A DNA stretch of 44,644 nucleotides from Nocardia ninae NBRC 108245 (GTDB lineage Bacteria; Actinomycetota; Actinomycetes; Mycobacteriales; Mycobacteriaceae), in the NCBI RefSeq assembly GCF_007990755.1, contig NZ_BJXA01000074.1:1-44644 (forward strand). Direction: 5' to 3'. The translations under genes were made by a program, and so were the position numbers. Numbering within the stretch: position 1 is the first letter of the stretch; each line of letters starts with the position of its first letter. The notes under the pieces are model-generated. The model worked only from the letters and a program-made list of their open reading frames with translations, made no database searches and was not told the DNA's origin. Positions 9,730-33,317 of the stretch are shown one piece after another.

Positions 9730-10701
9730 TCAGCTCGCGGTGCTGCTCGCCATCTGGCGTTCGGCCTTGGCGGCCTCGCGGGCGAGCATGCGGTCGCGCT
9801 GCTCCTCGAACTTCACCACGTCCTTGCCGAGCTTGTCGAGGTACGCGGCGAGCCGCTCGCGGCAGGCCTCACCGCGACCGGTGAAGTCGGTGCGGTCGAA
9901 GATGTTCCACTTCTTGAGCACCGGCTGCACCACCTCTTCCATGTGCTGGCGCAGGTCGTAGATGCCGTGCTTGGCCATCAGTACGCCGTTGCGGCGGAAG
10001 TTGGGCATACCGGCGCCGGGCATCTGGAAGTTCTCCAGGATCAGCGTGATGGCCTCGATCGTCTGGTCCGGGGCCAGGTCGAGCGCGGCGCCGCACATGT
10101 TGCGGTAGAAGATCATGTGCAGGTTCTCGTCCGCGGCGACGCGCTGGAGCATGCGGTCGGCGATCGGGTCGTCACACACCTTGCCGGTGTTGCGGTGGCT
10201 CACTCGGGTGGCCAGCTCCTGGAACGTCACGTACGCGACGGAGTGCAGGAAGCCCGCGTCGGCCTCGGTCGGCGACGCGAAACCGTTGGTCATGTGGATC
10301 ATCCGCGCCTCTTCGAGGGCGACCGGGTCGACGCCGCGGGTGACCACCAGGTAGTCCCGCATCACGATGCCGTGCCGGTTTTCCTCGGCGGTCCAACGGC
10401 CGACCCAGGTGCCCCACGCGCCGTCCTGCGAGAAGTTCTCGGCGATCTCGCGGTGGTAGGAGGGGAGGTTGTCCTCGGTGAGCAGGTTGGTGATCATGGC
10501 GGCTTTCGCGACCTCGCCCAACCGGGACTGTTCAGGATCCCAGTCGATGCCCCCGAGTGCGGCGAAATTGCGGCCTTCATCCCACGGGACGTAGTCGTGC
10601 GGATGCCATTCCTTTGCCAAGGAGAAGTGCCGGTTGACGTTTTCTGCGGCAACCGGCTCCAACTCCGTAAGAAGCTCGAGTTGAGTCAGATCCCTTGCCA
10701 T
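9730..10701 (-). CDS. desA: acyl-ACP desaturase (DesA-type, fatty acid desaturase family 2)
   Basis: A 323-residue soluble di-iron desaturase that inserts a cis double bond into acyl-ACP, in mycolic-acid bacteria feeding membrane lipid or meromycolate synthesis. The two iron-binding helices are visible: TAEENRHGIVMRDYL and ADENLHMIFYRNM (both ExxH). HDYVPWDEGRNFAALGG and YLTEDNLPSYH-like segments fit plant-type stearoyl-ACP desaturase relatives. The ATG at 10701 follows GAAGGG; a longer frame to 10839 covers promoter sequence and was not used. The C-terminus is an Ala-rich tail. A strong terminator follows, so the gene is probably monocistronic. Confidence 0.93.
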   Translation of the reverse strand: MARDLTQLELLTELEPVAAENVNRHFSLAKEWHPHDYVPWDEGRNFAALGGIDWDPEQSRLGEVAKAAMITNLLTEDNLPSYHREIAENFSQDGAWGTWVGRWTAEENRHGIVMRDYLVVTRGVDPVALEEARMIHMTNGFASPTEADAGFLHSVAYVTFQELATRVSHRNTGKVCDDPIADRMLQRVAADENLHMIFYRNMCGAALDLAPDQTIEAITLILENFQMPGAGMPNFRRNGVLMAKHGIYDLRQHMEEVVQPVLKKWNIFDRTDFTGRGEACRERLAAYLDKLGKDVVKFEEQRDRMLAREAAKAERQMASSTAS

Positions 10702-31161: not shown

Positions 31162-31200
31162 CGCCGAACGTCGGGCCGGTGCCCGACCCGACGTTCGGCG
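31162..31200 (+). terminator. 14-bp terminator of the CMD gene
   Basis: CGCCGAACGTCGGG (31162-31175) pairs perfectly with CCCGACGTTCGGCG (31187-31200) over 11 nt, in which TCGGG and CCCGA could form an alternative inner stem. It lies 22 nt after the stop. Confidence 0.85.
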
Positions 31201-31274
31201 GGCAGCGCGATATGGGCGGTCGGCGGGCACTGTGCGATACGGCACGGTCCCCGCTCCCCTCGGTACCTGCCTGG

Positions 31275-31280
31275 TACAGT
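31275..31280 (+). promoter_or_regulatory. -10-like hexamer for the DAHP synthase leader
   Basis: TACAGT resembles a sigma-70-type -10 and ends 7 nt before GTG 31288. If it is the promoter, the transcript starts at or within one base of that GTG and is leaderless. No clear -35 is visible, which is common in actinobacteria. Confidence 0.45.
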
Positions 31281-31287
31281 CCCTGAC

Positions 31288-31359
31288 GTGCAGCGCGTGT
31301 ATTTCTGGTTTAGCAAGCCGGCCCTGGGTGGGCAGGTCTGCGGCCTTCAGCTGCGCTGA
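31288..31359 (+). CDS. leader peptide MQRVYFWFSKPA... with Tyr-Phe-Trp-Phe codons
   Basis: GTG 31288 opens a 23-codon frame ending TGA at 31357-31359. Codons 5-8 (31300-31311) are Tyr, Phe, Trp and Phe in a row, all three aromatic amino acids made by the pathway of the downstream gene. The remaining residues are ordinary (SKPALGGQV, CGLQLR). The frame lies 86 bp upstream of the DAHP synthase start, has no Shine-Dalgarno site and has a -10-like hexamer immediately in front, consistent with a leaderless transcript. A stem-loop follows 13 nt after the stop. This is the layout of a ribosome-sensed attenuator. The peptide itself need not have a function. Confidence 0.75.
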   Translation: MQRVYFWFSKPALGGQVCGLQLR

Positions 31360-31372
31360 CAACATTCCACCC

Positions 31373-31396
31373 CGAGCCGGATTATGGACCGGCTCG
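31373..31396 (+). terminator. candidate attenuator stem-loop
   Basis: CGAGCCGG (31373-31380) pairs with CCGGCTCG (31389-31396) over ATTATGGA. CCCC at 31370-31373 and GGGG at 31399-31402 could lengthen it across a bulge, and TTT follows at 31403. The AGCCGG of the left arm is repeated inside the leader at 31316-31321, just after the Tyr-Phe-Trp-Phe codons. That copy can pair with the same CCGGCT, giving two mutually exclusive folds. Confidence 0.6.
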
Positions 31397-31445
31397 ACGG
31401 GGTTTCACGTCCGTGGGGTCGGCCGAAGAAAAGGAACCCACGACC

Positions 31446-32537
31446 ATGACTACCGCTGCCGACATCGATGCGCGGCATTCTGATCTCGACGACCAACGCA
31501 CCCTGAGCGTGAGCCCGCTGCGCTCGCCCGCCGAGGTACGCAATGTGCACCCGATCACCGACGGACTCGCGAACACGGTCCGCCGCGGCCGCGCCGCCAC
31601 CGTGGATGTGCTCAACGGTGTGGACGACCGCCTGATGGTGATCGTCGGACCGTGCTCGGTGCACGACCCGGTCGCCGCCCTCGACTACGCGCGCCGCCTG
31701 GCCGCCAAGGCCGCCCAGCTGGACGACCGGCTGCATGTGGTGATGCGGGTGTACTTCGAGAAGCCGCGCACCACCCTGGGCTGGAAGGGGCTGATCAACG
31801 ATCCGCACCTGGACGGCTCCTTCGACGTCAACACCGGCCTCGGTTTCGGTCGCAAGCTGCTCGCCGACATCAGTGCGCTCGGCCTGCCGGTGGCCTGTGA
31901 GTTCCTCGATCCGATCACCCCGCAGTACATCGCGGACCTGGTCTCCTACGGCGCGATCGGCGCCCGCACCGCGGCCAGCCAGGTGCACCGCCAGCTGAGC
32001 AGCGCGCTGTCCATGCCGGTCGGCATCAAGAACGGCACCGACGGCGACGTGCAGGTGGCGGTCGACGGTGTCCGCGCCGCCGCGGCCAGCCACGTGTTCC
32101 CCGGCACCGACCTGGACGGGCGCGCCGCGCTCATCCGCACCACCGGCAACCCCGACTGCCACGTCATCCTGCGCGGCGGCACCTCCGGCACCAACTACGA
32201 CGCGGCGTCCGTCGCCGAGGCGTGCATGCTGCTGGAGAAGGCCGGGCTGCCGCAGCGACTGGTGGTCGACGCCAGCCACGGCAACAGCAACAAGGACCAC
32301 AACAAGCAGGTCGACGTGGTCACCGATATCGCGGCCCGGCTGGCCGTCGGCGAACCCGGCGTGGTCGGCGTGATGCTGGAGAGCTTCCTCGTGGCAGGCC
32401 GGCAGGACCTGACCCTCGGCCACGCCGACGAGCTCACCTACGGCCAGTCGATCACCGACGCCTGCCTCGATTGGGACACCACCGCCCGCCAGCTCGACCG
32501 GCTCGCCGACGCGATCCAGCAGCGCCGTAACCTCTGA
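31446..32537 (+). CDS. DAHP synthase, class I (3-deoxy-7-phosphoheptulonate synthase)
   Basis: A 363-residue AroF/G/H-type enzyme that joins phosphoenolpyruvate and erythrose-4-phosphate to enter the shikimate pathway. It shows IVGPCSVHD (metal-ligand Cys70), YFEKPRTTLGWKG (PEP site), EFLDPITPQYI, GARTAASQVHR, GIKNGTDG, ILRGG and VVDASHGNSNKDH. The class I fold contrasts with the class II AroG of M. tuberculosis. ATG 31446 has AAGGAA 9 nt upstream, and the frame is open to 31413. It is preceded by the Tyr-Phe-Trp-Phe leader and followed by a terminator, so it is transcribed alone. Confidence 0.95.
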   Translation: MTTAADIDARHSDLDDQRTLSVSPLRSPAEVRNVHPITDGLANTVRRGRAATVDVLNGVDDRLMVIVGPCSVHDPVAALDYARRLAAKAAQLDDRLHVVMRVYFEKPRTTLGWKGLINDPHLDGSFDVNTGLGFGRKLLADISALGLPVACEFLDPITPQYIADLVSYGAIGARTAASQVHRQLSSALSMPVGIKNGTDGDVQVAVDGVRAAAASHVFPGTDLDGRAALIRTTGNPDCHVILRGGTSGTNYDAASVAEACMLLEKAGLPQRLVVDASHGNSNKDHNKQVDVVTDIAARLAVGEPGVVGVMLESFLVAGRQDLTLGHADELTYGQSITDACLDWDTTARQLDRLADAIQQRRNL

Positions 32538-32657: not shown

Positions 32658-33317
32658 GTGACGATCGACTGTGTGATCGAAATGGCGGCGGTGTTCGGGG
32701 TAGCGGTGGTGGCGTTGGGGTTGGTGCTGACGCCGGGGCCGAACATGATGTATCTGGTTTCTCGGACGGTGTCGCAGGGGCGGCGCGCCGGGTTGGTGTC
32801 GCTGGGCGGTGTCGCGGCGGGGTTCGGGGTGTATCTGGTCGCGGCCGCGGTGGGGATCACTGCGGTGTTCGCGGTGGTGCCCGGATTGTATCTCGCGGTG
32901 AAGCTGGCCGGTGCGGCTTATCTGCTGTGGTTGGCCTGGCAGGCGTTGCGGCCGGGCGGGACTTCGGTATTCGCACCCTCGGCGTTGGCTCCGGATCCGG
33001 CGCGGCGGTTGTTCACGATGGGGTTCGTCACCAACCTGCTGAATCCGAAGATCGCGATCATGTACATGGCGCTGATCCCGCAGTTCGTGTCGCCCGATCA
33101 GGGGCAGGTCTGGTTACAGAGCCTGTGCCTCGGACTGGTGCAGATCGCGGTGGCGTTGACGGTGAACGGGCTGATCGTGCTCGGCGCGGGCAGCATCTCA
33201 ACCTTCCTCACTGGCCGCCCGCTCTGGCTCCGCACCCAGCGGTACGTCATGGGCACCATGCTCGGCACCATCGCGGTCCTCGTCGCCACCGATCGCGCCC
33301 GTCCCGTTCCGGCCTGA
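32658..33317 (+). CDS. LysE/RhtB family amino-acid exporter
   Basis: A 219-residue membrane protein with six predicted helices. It contains the LysE signature LVLTPGPNMMYLVSRTVSQGRRAG near the N-terminus and the conserved GFVTNLLNPKIAIMYMALIPQF in the middle. Proteins of this family export amino acids such as lysine or threonine, or their analogues. GTG 32658 is the longest start; ATG 32682 (MAAVFGVAV) is equally likely. The first half is rich in GTG/TTG codons, as in the Gap gene at 14424. The proximity to DAHP synthase may be coincidental, and they are separated by a terminator. Confidence 0.85.
   Translation: MTIDCVIEMAAVFGVAVVALGLVLTPGPNMMYLVSRTVSQGRRAGLVSLGGVAAGFGVYLVAAAVGITAVFAVVPGLYLAVKLAGAAYLLWLAWQALRPGGTSVFAPSALAPDPARRLFTMGFVTNLLNPKIAIMYMALIPQFVSPDQGQVWLQSLCLGLVQIAVALTVNGLIVLGAGSISTFLTGRPLWLRTQRYVMGTMLGTIAVLVATDRARPVPA

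Follow-up and report, generated by a model that had tools for sequence, protein, structure and literature searches.

The class I DAHP synthase gene of Nocardia ninae NBRC 108245 is preceded by a short reading frame with consecutive codons for all three aromatic amino acids, which raises the question whether ribosomes translating this frame sense the aromatic supply and, if so, at which level they control the gene. We followed this question in a 44,644 nt stretch of DNA analysed at its full length (the window; contig NZ_BJXA01000074.1, to which all coordinates refer), in the corresponding loci of other genomes and in predicted RNA folds.

The leader peptide gene and its promoter

The following elements make up the promoter, the leader and the gene behind it.

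31272..31280, plus strand: extended -10 promoter element TGG-TACAGT, 7 nt upstream of the leader GTG
31288..31359, plus strand: leader peptide gene of 23 codons, MQRVYFWFSKPALGGQVCGLQLR, with the GTG start at the predicted 5′ end and the TGA stop at 31357-31359
31300..31311, plus strand: control codons TAT TTC TGG TTT (Tyr Phe Trp Phe)
31431..31435, plus strand: Shine-Dalgarno sequence AAGGA of the DAHP synthase gene, within stem P4
31446..32537, plus strand: class I DAHP synthase gene of the aroFGH type (TIGR00034, E 1.4e-145)

The leader frame reads GTG CAG CGC GTG TAT TTC TGG TTT AGC AAG CCG GCC ... CGC TGA, so that the 23-codon GTG frame with a Tyr-Phe-Trp-Phe run which an earlier note had described at 31288-31359 is present as stated. 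Its stop (31359) and the start of the DAHP synthase gene are 86 nt apart. The run includes the rare codon TTT: in the high-GC3 frames of the window, TTT accounts for 11 of the 233 phenylalanine codons and TAT for 29 of the 171 tyrosine codons. The -10-like TACAGT proposed in the same note (31275-31280) was confirmed 7 nt 5′ of the GTG, and a preceding TGG (31272-31274) makes it an extended -10 element.

The position of this promoter is conserved. TGN-TANNNT stands 6–8 nt 5′ of the leader start in 70/70 loci of the genus, and TANNNT stands 5–7 nt 5′ of it in 47 of 50 loci from other genera, a set in which three loci have no start codon at the first position of the model and a few genomes were entered twice. 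The chance rate of TANNNT 5–9 nt before ATG or GTG is 11/1464 in the window. Shine-Dalgarno-like sequences upstream of the leader start were found in none of 120 loci. As the promoter position is conserved and such sequences are absent, the leaderless transcript claimed before is well supported on the side of promoter conservation, and the predicted arrangement is that of leaderless short ORFs, whose start codon coincides with the transcript 5′ end without a Shine-Dalgarno sequence.

The gene at 31446-32537 is the sole class I match in the 9.7 Mb genome, which encodes a class II DAHP synthase elsewhere as a second isozyme. Because no aromatic leader was seen by eye before the class II gene, the leader would control one of the two isozymes. 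At the class II gene, TATTCT stands 6 nt 5′ of a GTG (locus L238, around positions 1400–1420), and this gene may itself be leaderless. Three further observations concern the window at large. A LysE/RhtB-type amino-acid exporter gene (32658-33317) lies directly 3′ of the class I gene. Between an AhpD-like gene and the leader promoter, a strong inverted repeat, GCCGAACGTCGGGC/GCCCGACCCGACGTTCGGC (31163-31203), is perhaps the 3′ end of the upstream gene. Positions 10316-10383 match the ASdes sRNA family RF01781 inside a 373-aa ORF on the same strand.

Recurrence of the leader within and beyond Nocardia

The class I enzyme was detected at E ≤ 1e-60 in 84 of 119 genomes, that of N. ninae included, and these comprised 69 of 70 relatives from the same genus. 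A leader precedes each of the 70 primary class I orthologues of the genus, the window included, and starts 143–165 nt 5′ of the gene; together with the TIGR00034 match, this bears out the claim of a leader with all three aromatic residues before a class I DAHP synthase. When a similar ORF filter was applied to 221 control stretches of the window, 2 were positive and 0/221 contained all three aromatics. A chance occurrence of the leader can thus be dismissed, given 70/70 orthologues as against 2/221 control stretches. Loci L082–L088, which had no tblastn anchor, were left out, and the locus-by-locus analysis covered the set without L095–L103, L114, L117, L118, L122, L123, L209, L210, L228 and L230–L237.

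The run is YFWF in 68 of the 70 leaders and YWF in 2; the codons TGG and TTT are fixed in 70/70, and TAT is found in 68/70. Around the run the peptide follows the pattern QR-YFWF-S-PA-GG, and after the control codons CCG (69/70), GCC (70/70) and GGG (70/70) recur. One codon among these fixed ones varies, encoding Leu in 35 leaders, Pro in 25, Arg in 7, Gln in 2 and Ser in 1. Variation of this residue, together with invariant third codon positions at sites of possible RNA pairing, points to a constraint at the RNA level. Ten second, diverged class I genes in genomes of the genus (L071–L078, L089, L090) have no aromatic leader according to the ORF filter. Locus L250 is a class I copy with one in-frame TGA, at which no leader was found.

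A covariance model, R1, built from 41 dereplicated sequences of the genus, revealed one convincing site in the genome of N. ninae (E 6e-32); with the next best match at E 0.58, a second copy of the leader there was rejected. Throughout the order, 60 of 397 genomes contained one convincing site each (E ≤ 0.01, with five matches above 1e-4), including several genera of the family and many members of the family that contains Amycolatopsis. Named class I genes were represented by the 80 best of at least 591 loci; in this set an aromatic leader was found before 27 of 32 actinobacterial genes (Tyr, Phe and Trp within the first 16 residues in 26) and before 36 of 48 genes of other phyla (all three aromatics in 27). 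Conservation of the aromatic run among relatives, on which the earlier note had made the leader depend, is observed in Nocardia and Rhodococcus and extends far beyond them.

Outside Actinobacteria, class I genes with short ORFs carrying dense aromatic runs were seen in Xanthomonas, Burkholderia, Bradyrhizobium, Devosia and others, with runs such as SFYFWYYGF, SYFWYFSY and KFYFYFFWH. These ORFs lie upstream of position 1501 in L141, L146–L148, L150–L152, L154, L156–L158, L161, L162, L164, L169–L175, L181–L183, L185, L186, L188, L192, L194–L197, L199, L200, L202 and L203.

Even sampling across the bacterial class to which Nocardia belongs yielded 30 class I genes in 158 genomes, 22 of them with a leader and 8 with none by the filter. 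The run holds all three aromatics in 12 of these 22 leaders and only Tyr and Phe in the other 10, which come from one family and are of the RRYPYFAQ type; Trp is therefore not universal in the run. In each of the 22, TANNNT stands 7–8 nt 5′ of the chosen start, a tally that leans towards a -10 as starts were picked among the in-frame ones to fit it. The peptide differs widely in relatives (RRYPYFAQ, RAYWRFIE, YRWFRQ), and the arrangement is kept.

RNA stems and their predicted response to ribosome position

Seven pairings were considered in the leader RNA; the counts refer to the 41 dereplicated genus sequences.

31291..31358, plus strand: P0, CAGCGC (31291-31296) with GCGCTG (31353-31358), closing the leader ORF; paired in 39–41 of 41
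31318..31336, plus strand: P1, CCGGCCC (31318-31324) with GGGCAGG (31330-31336), a hairpin just 3′ of the control codons with one mismatch in the window; paired in 33–41 of 41
31317..31423, plus strand: A1:D, candidate anti-sequestor, GCCGGCCC (31317-31324) with GGGTCGGC (31416-31423); paired in 37–41 of 41
31326..31372, plus strand: A2:B1, GGGTGG (31326-31331) with CCACCC (31367-31372); paired in 36–41 of 41, one row being gapped at one pair
31374..31395, plus strand: P3, GAGCCGG (31374-31380) with CCGGCTC (31389-31395); paired in 39–41 of 41
31413..31441, plus strand: P4 (D:E), the putative sequestor, GTGGG (31413-31417) with CCCAC (31437-31441), enclosing the DAHP synthase ribosome-binding site
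31302..31436, plus strand: codon–Shine-Dalgarno pairing, TTTCT (31302-31306) with AGGAA (31432-31436), five pairs including one G-U, in the ribosome-free window fold

P3 is the stem that the earlier note had taken for the attenuator (31373-31396). The stem exists, and the AGCCGG of its left arm is indeed repeated at 31316-31321; on correction it measures 7 bp with a short GC extension, and it is followed by a short TTT rather than by a U-tract. It was predicted in the window folds of every ribosome state tried. The assignment of this stem as the attenuator was therefore not upheld, and P3 was rejected as a typical intrinsic terminator, as it has no U-tract and does not switch in the window folds.

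In the 41 genus sequences P0, P1, A2:B1, P3, A1:D and P4 can mostly form, and none of them showed covariation, the sequences being too alike: A1:D has no two-sided change, and P0 and P1 are nearly invariant. A double change from GC to AT in A2:B1 was seen by eye in L079/L080. The analysis was extended to 75 R1 matches from many genera, whose sources were hand-chosen, mostly because R1 or the leader was known to occur there, and include two pairs of loci from the same genomes (L132/L213 and L080/L116). In this set P4 showed two-sided changes in 5 of 6 pairs, with 83.7% of cells paired and with variants such as GTGGGT/ACCCAC, GCGGGT/ACCCGC and TCGGG/CCCGA. All 3 pairs in the GC extension of P3 showed two-sided changes, with 83.6% of cells paired; P0, P1 and P3 proper had none. 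The whole structure contains 8 double-change pairs as compared with 4.6 expected from shuffles, of which 2 in 500 reach 8, and with 2–6 in slid controls.

As the alignment of the 75 sequences had been fitted to the structure, alignment-free pairing tests, which do not correct for shared ancestry, were run as well. The partner-swap set comprised 69 of the 75 matches (left out were L165, L226 (truncated), L221, L223, L227 and L229) and 48 sequences after dereplication. The pairing of D with its own E exceeded the mean obtained with E segments of dissimilar sequences in 40/48 (p 4e-7). Permutation of P4 gave p 5e-5, the floor, over all sequences, 0.012 within Nocardia and 5e-5 in other genera. 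For the same 48 sequences, swaps gave p 0.73 for A:D and p 0.06 for A:B, which is thereby only hinted at. Permutation of C:D gave p 5e-5 outside Nocardia versus 0.054 within it, and the anti-sequestor partner is uncertain because C:D is supported only outside the genus. A five-segment chain with C:D holds outside Nocardia and not inside it. A long A:B helix option (GGCTCCGGG with CCCGGAGCC) was noticed by eye in L135, L140, L142, L160 and L190, which are of Mycobacterium, Williamsia and Dietzia type.

The response of these stems to the ribosome was predicted by footprint folding at assumed equilibrium, in which all RNA up to the leading edge of the ribosome was removed and the openness of the last 16 nt upstream of the gene plus its start codon was computed. 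With a 13-nt edge, the mean accessibility of the ribosome-binding site in the 70 genus leaders was highest with the ribosome at Tyr (0.54) or Trp (0.52) and lower with it at the last Phe (0.42) or the stop (0.40). Relative to the stop state, it rose by more than 0.05 in 41/70 leaders at Tyr and in 36/70 at Trp and fell in 0/70; the remaining 29/70 showed no clear rise for a ribosome at Tyr. With the ribosome at the last, invariant Phe codon, the fold hardly alters (up in 8 and down in 1 of 70). The corresponding values for the window are 0.73, 0.75, 0.41 and 0.40. Shuffles of segment A reached the window values in 3 (Tyr) and 6 (Trp) of 200 cases, and in 24 genus leaders, taken as every third, the observed value exceeded the shuffle mean in 21 (Tyr) and 18 (Trp). 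After one shuffle of segment A per leader, accessibility was still up in 19/70 and down in 7 (p 0.0003). The single shuffle of the window gave 0.78, a rise that repeated shuffles do not reproduce.

With a 16-nt edge, a ribosome at Trp no longer opened the site in the window (0.41), and the mean at Trp was 0.37 versus 0.34 at the stop (68 leaders, L004 and L014 left out); opening was kept for ribosomes at Tyr and at the first Phe. In 37 leaders of other genera, six of 43 sequences having been left out, 18 went up and 2 down, both at Tyr and at Trp. In the predicted window folds, A1:D appears when the ribosome is at Tyr or at the first Phe; it is also already the fold preferred by window RNA free of ribosomes, in which the control codons pair with the Shine-Dalgarno sequence. 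Folding with and without a stalled ribosome predicts that the stem around the ribosome-binding site, which the earlier note does not mention, opens and closes, while the stem put forward in that note stays static. The proposal that one leader senses all three aromatics would, in these models, apply to Tyr and the first Phe; for Trp it would require a leading edge of 13 nt, and for the last Phe there is hardly any effect.

Level of control and alternative explanations

No hairpin with a U-tract was found between leader and gene in the window. The same terminator filter was positive in 6/70 loci of the genus and in 2/43 R1-type close relatives, as compared with 11/21 loci of other Actinobacteria; of the 16 among these with a leader, 10 were positive. 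Positive examples are Mycobacterium colombiense, Kribbella, Micromonospora and Williamsia; among the loci with the long A:B option, L135, L142, L160 and L190 have a hairpin with U-tract and L140 does not. On account of these counts we read the Nocardia form as probably acting mainly on translation.

The locus shares with ribosome-mediated attenuators of the leader-peptide type a short ORF that carries a run of codons for pathway products upstream of a biosynthetic gene. Starvation-sensitive codons upstream of aromatic genes are likewise found in the pheA and trp leaders of E. coli, which sense a single amino acid, are led by a Shine-Dalgarno sequence and use a U-tract terminator. The aroR-aroF leader of Corynebacterium glutamicum, reportedly to be attributed to Neshat et al. 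2014, resembles the Nocardia locus in that aromatic codons in a leader precede a class I DAHP synthase gene. As described, aroR has consecutive Phe-Tyr-Phe codons (PMC11802643, PMC4046766, PMC3890552) that are tied to ribosome stalling; it differs, by its published description, in having no Trp in the run. Its effect is given in one source as enhanced transcription under Phe limitation with no effect of Tyr (PMC11802643), and in another aroR is called a translational regulatory leader peptide of aroF acting through Phe and Tyr (PMC7356990). None of 401 sampled genomes contained a match to a 19-base pattern taken from the region 5′ of aroR.

In E. coli, aroF and aroH are described as controlled by TyrR/TrpR (PMC11802643). 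Seliverstov et al. 2005 (PMC1262725) predicted actinobacterial trp, ilvB and leuS attenuators and a LEU element, with Nocardia farcinica included; these resemble our locus in that leader peptides with control codons precede amino-acid genes, in some cases with no terminator evident. For phenylalanine or tyrosine operons, the passages cited here report that no conserved structure lies 5′ of them. The leader peptides named in the cited parts of two other surveys are eight in Streptomyces lividans, none of them for DAHP synthase (PMC8079986), and those of trp, ilvB and leu in C. diphtheriae (PMC5784534). Cysteine-responsive leaderless short ORFs of mycobacteria (Canestrari et al. 2020, as described in PMC9031893) are similar in that control codons set downstream expression and differ in their cysteine codons and operon. 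Rfam gave no match above the gathering score at the window leader or in the loci of 20 relatives, and the openly licensed literature searched yielded no published DAHP synthase leader of such kind outside Corynebacterium.

On balance, we favour a ribosome-sensed attenuator of the first step of the shikimate pathway, which in its Nocardia form would act mainly on translation; its type is probably a leaderless, multi-aromatic, translational attenuation of the class I DAHP synthase. Transcription would begin at or beside the GTG, and the ribosome would start on the 5′ end. With ample charged tRNA, it would run through Tyr-Phe-Trp-Phe to the TGA and cover segment A and part of B1, so that D:E (P4) could pair around the DAHP synthase Shine-Dalgarno sequence and little translation would follow. 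When aromatic aminoacyl-tRNA is short, the ribosome would wait at the aromatic codons just 5′ of segment A, and A might then pair with B1 (A2:B1) and with D (A1:D); in related genera it might instead be C that pairs with D. This would free E together with the Shine-Dalgarno sequence, and the enzyme would be made. We infer translation of the leader, stalling, the segment that opens P4 and control at translation rather than termination.

The chief rival to translational control, if a doubtful one, is attenuation of transcription, in which P3 and its GC extension (31370-31402), or Rho, would terminate RNA polymerase in the manner of trp-type attenuators. Such a mechanism would suit the transcriptional effect described for aroR (PMC11802643), the hairpins with U-tract in 11/21 other actinobacterial loci, the two-sided changes in the P3 GC extension and the short TTT behind the window stem. 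It is difficult to reconcile with the terminator counts for the window, the genus and the R1-type relatives, and with P3 being predicted in all window ribosome states tried; moreover, covariation extends 3′ of P3 to the ribosome-binding site, which would be superfluous for a pure terminator. An arrangement resembling the LEU element, in which the control codons pair with the Shine-Dalgarno sequence of the gene and any ribosome on them frees it, appears improbable. The leuA LEU element is described as having a base stem between leucine codons and Shine-Dalgarno sequence (PMC1262725), and in the ribosome-free window fold the TTTCT/AGGAA pairing and its neighbouring pairs indeed amount to 6.5 expected pairs. 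At least 4 expected pairs are nevertheless predicted in only 15/70 genus leaders and at least 2 in 19/70, and the covarying P4 would be left unexplained.

An arrest peptide, i.e. a nascent leader peptide through which a free aromatic amino acid would halt the ribosome, seems very unlikely. Conservation of the peptide around the run in the genus would speak for it; one residue after the run varies, however, third codon positions are invariant at sites of possible RNA pairing, and the diverse peptides of relatives retain the arrangement. We would hardly expect, either, that the frame merely serves simple translational coupling or, as a leaderless uORF, ribosome loading without aromatic sensing. 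Leaderless short ORFs that influence downstream genes are described (PMC9031893), yet aromatic runs recur before the same enzyme in distant phyla (27/32 and 36/48 versus 2/221 controls), and the leader stop lies 86 nt 5′ of the gene start.

The synthesis of all aromatic amino acids starts with DAHP synthase. Tentatively, the multi-aromatic ribosome sensor may be an ancestral, bacteria-wide control of the class I enzyme whose output changed repeatedly. It would be a terminator in the Mycobacterium, Streptomyces, Kribbella and Micromonospora types; Nocardia, Rhodococcus and Pseudonocardiaceae would have a leaderless transcript with a covarying sequestor of the Shine-Dalgarno sequence, and there one leader would integrate the supply of Tyr, Phe and Trp. 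If so, a single small leader would integrate three amino acids, its sensing part would be far wider spread than reported, and, depending on the lineage, the same sensor would be wired either to termination or to the initiation of translation. The evolution of attenuators would then become directly testable, and the leader would be a point of intervention for producing aromatics in Rhodococcus and Amycolatopsis.
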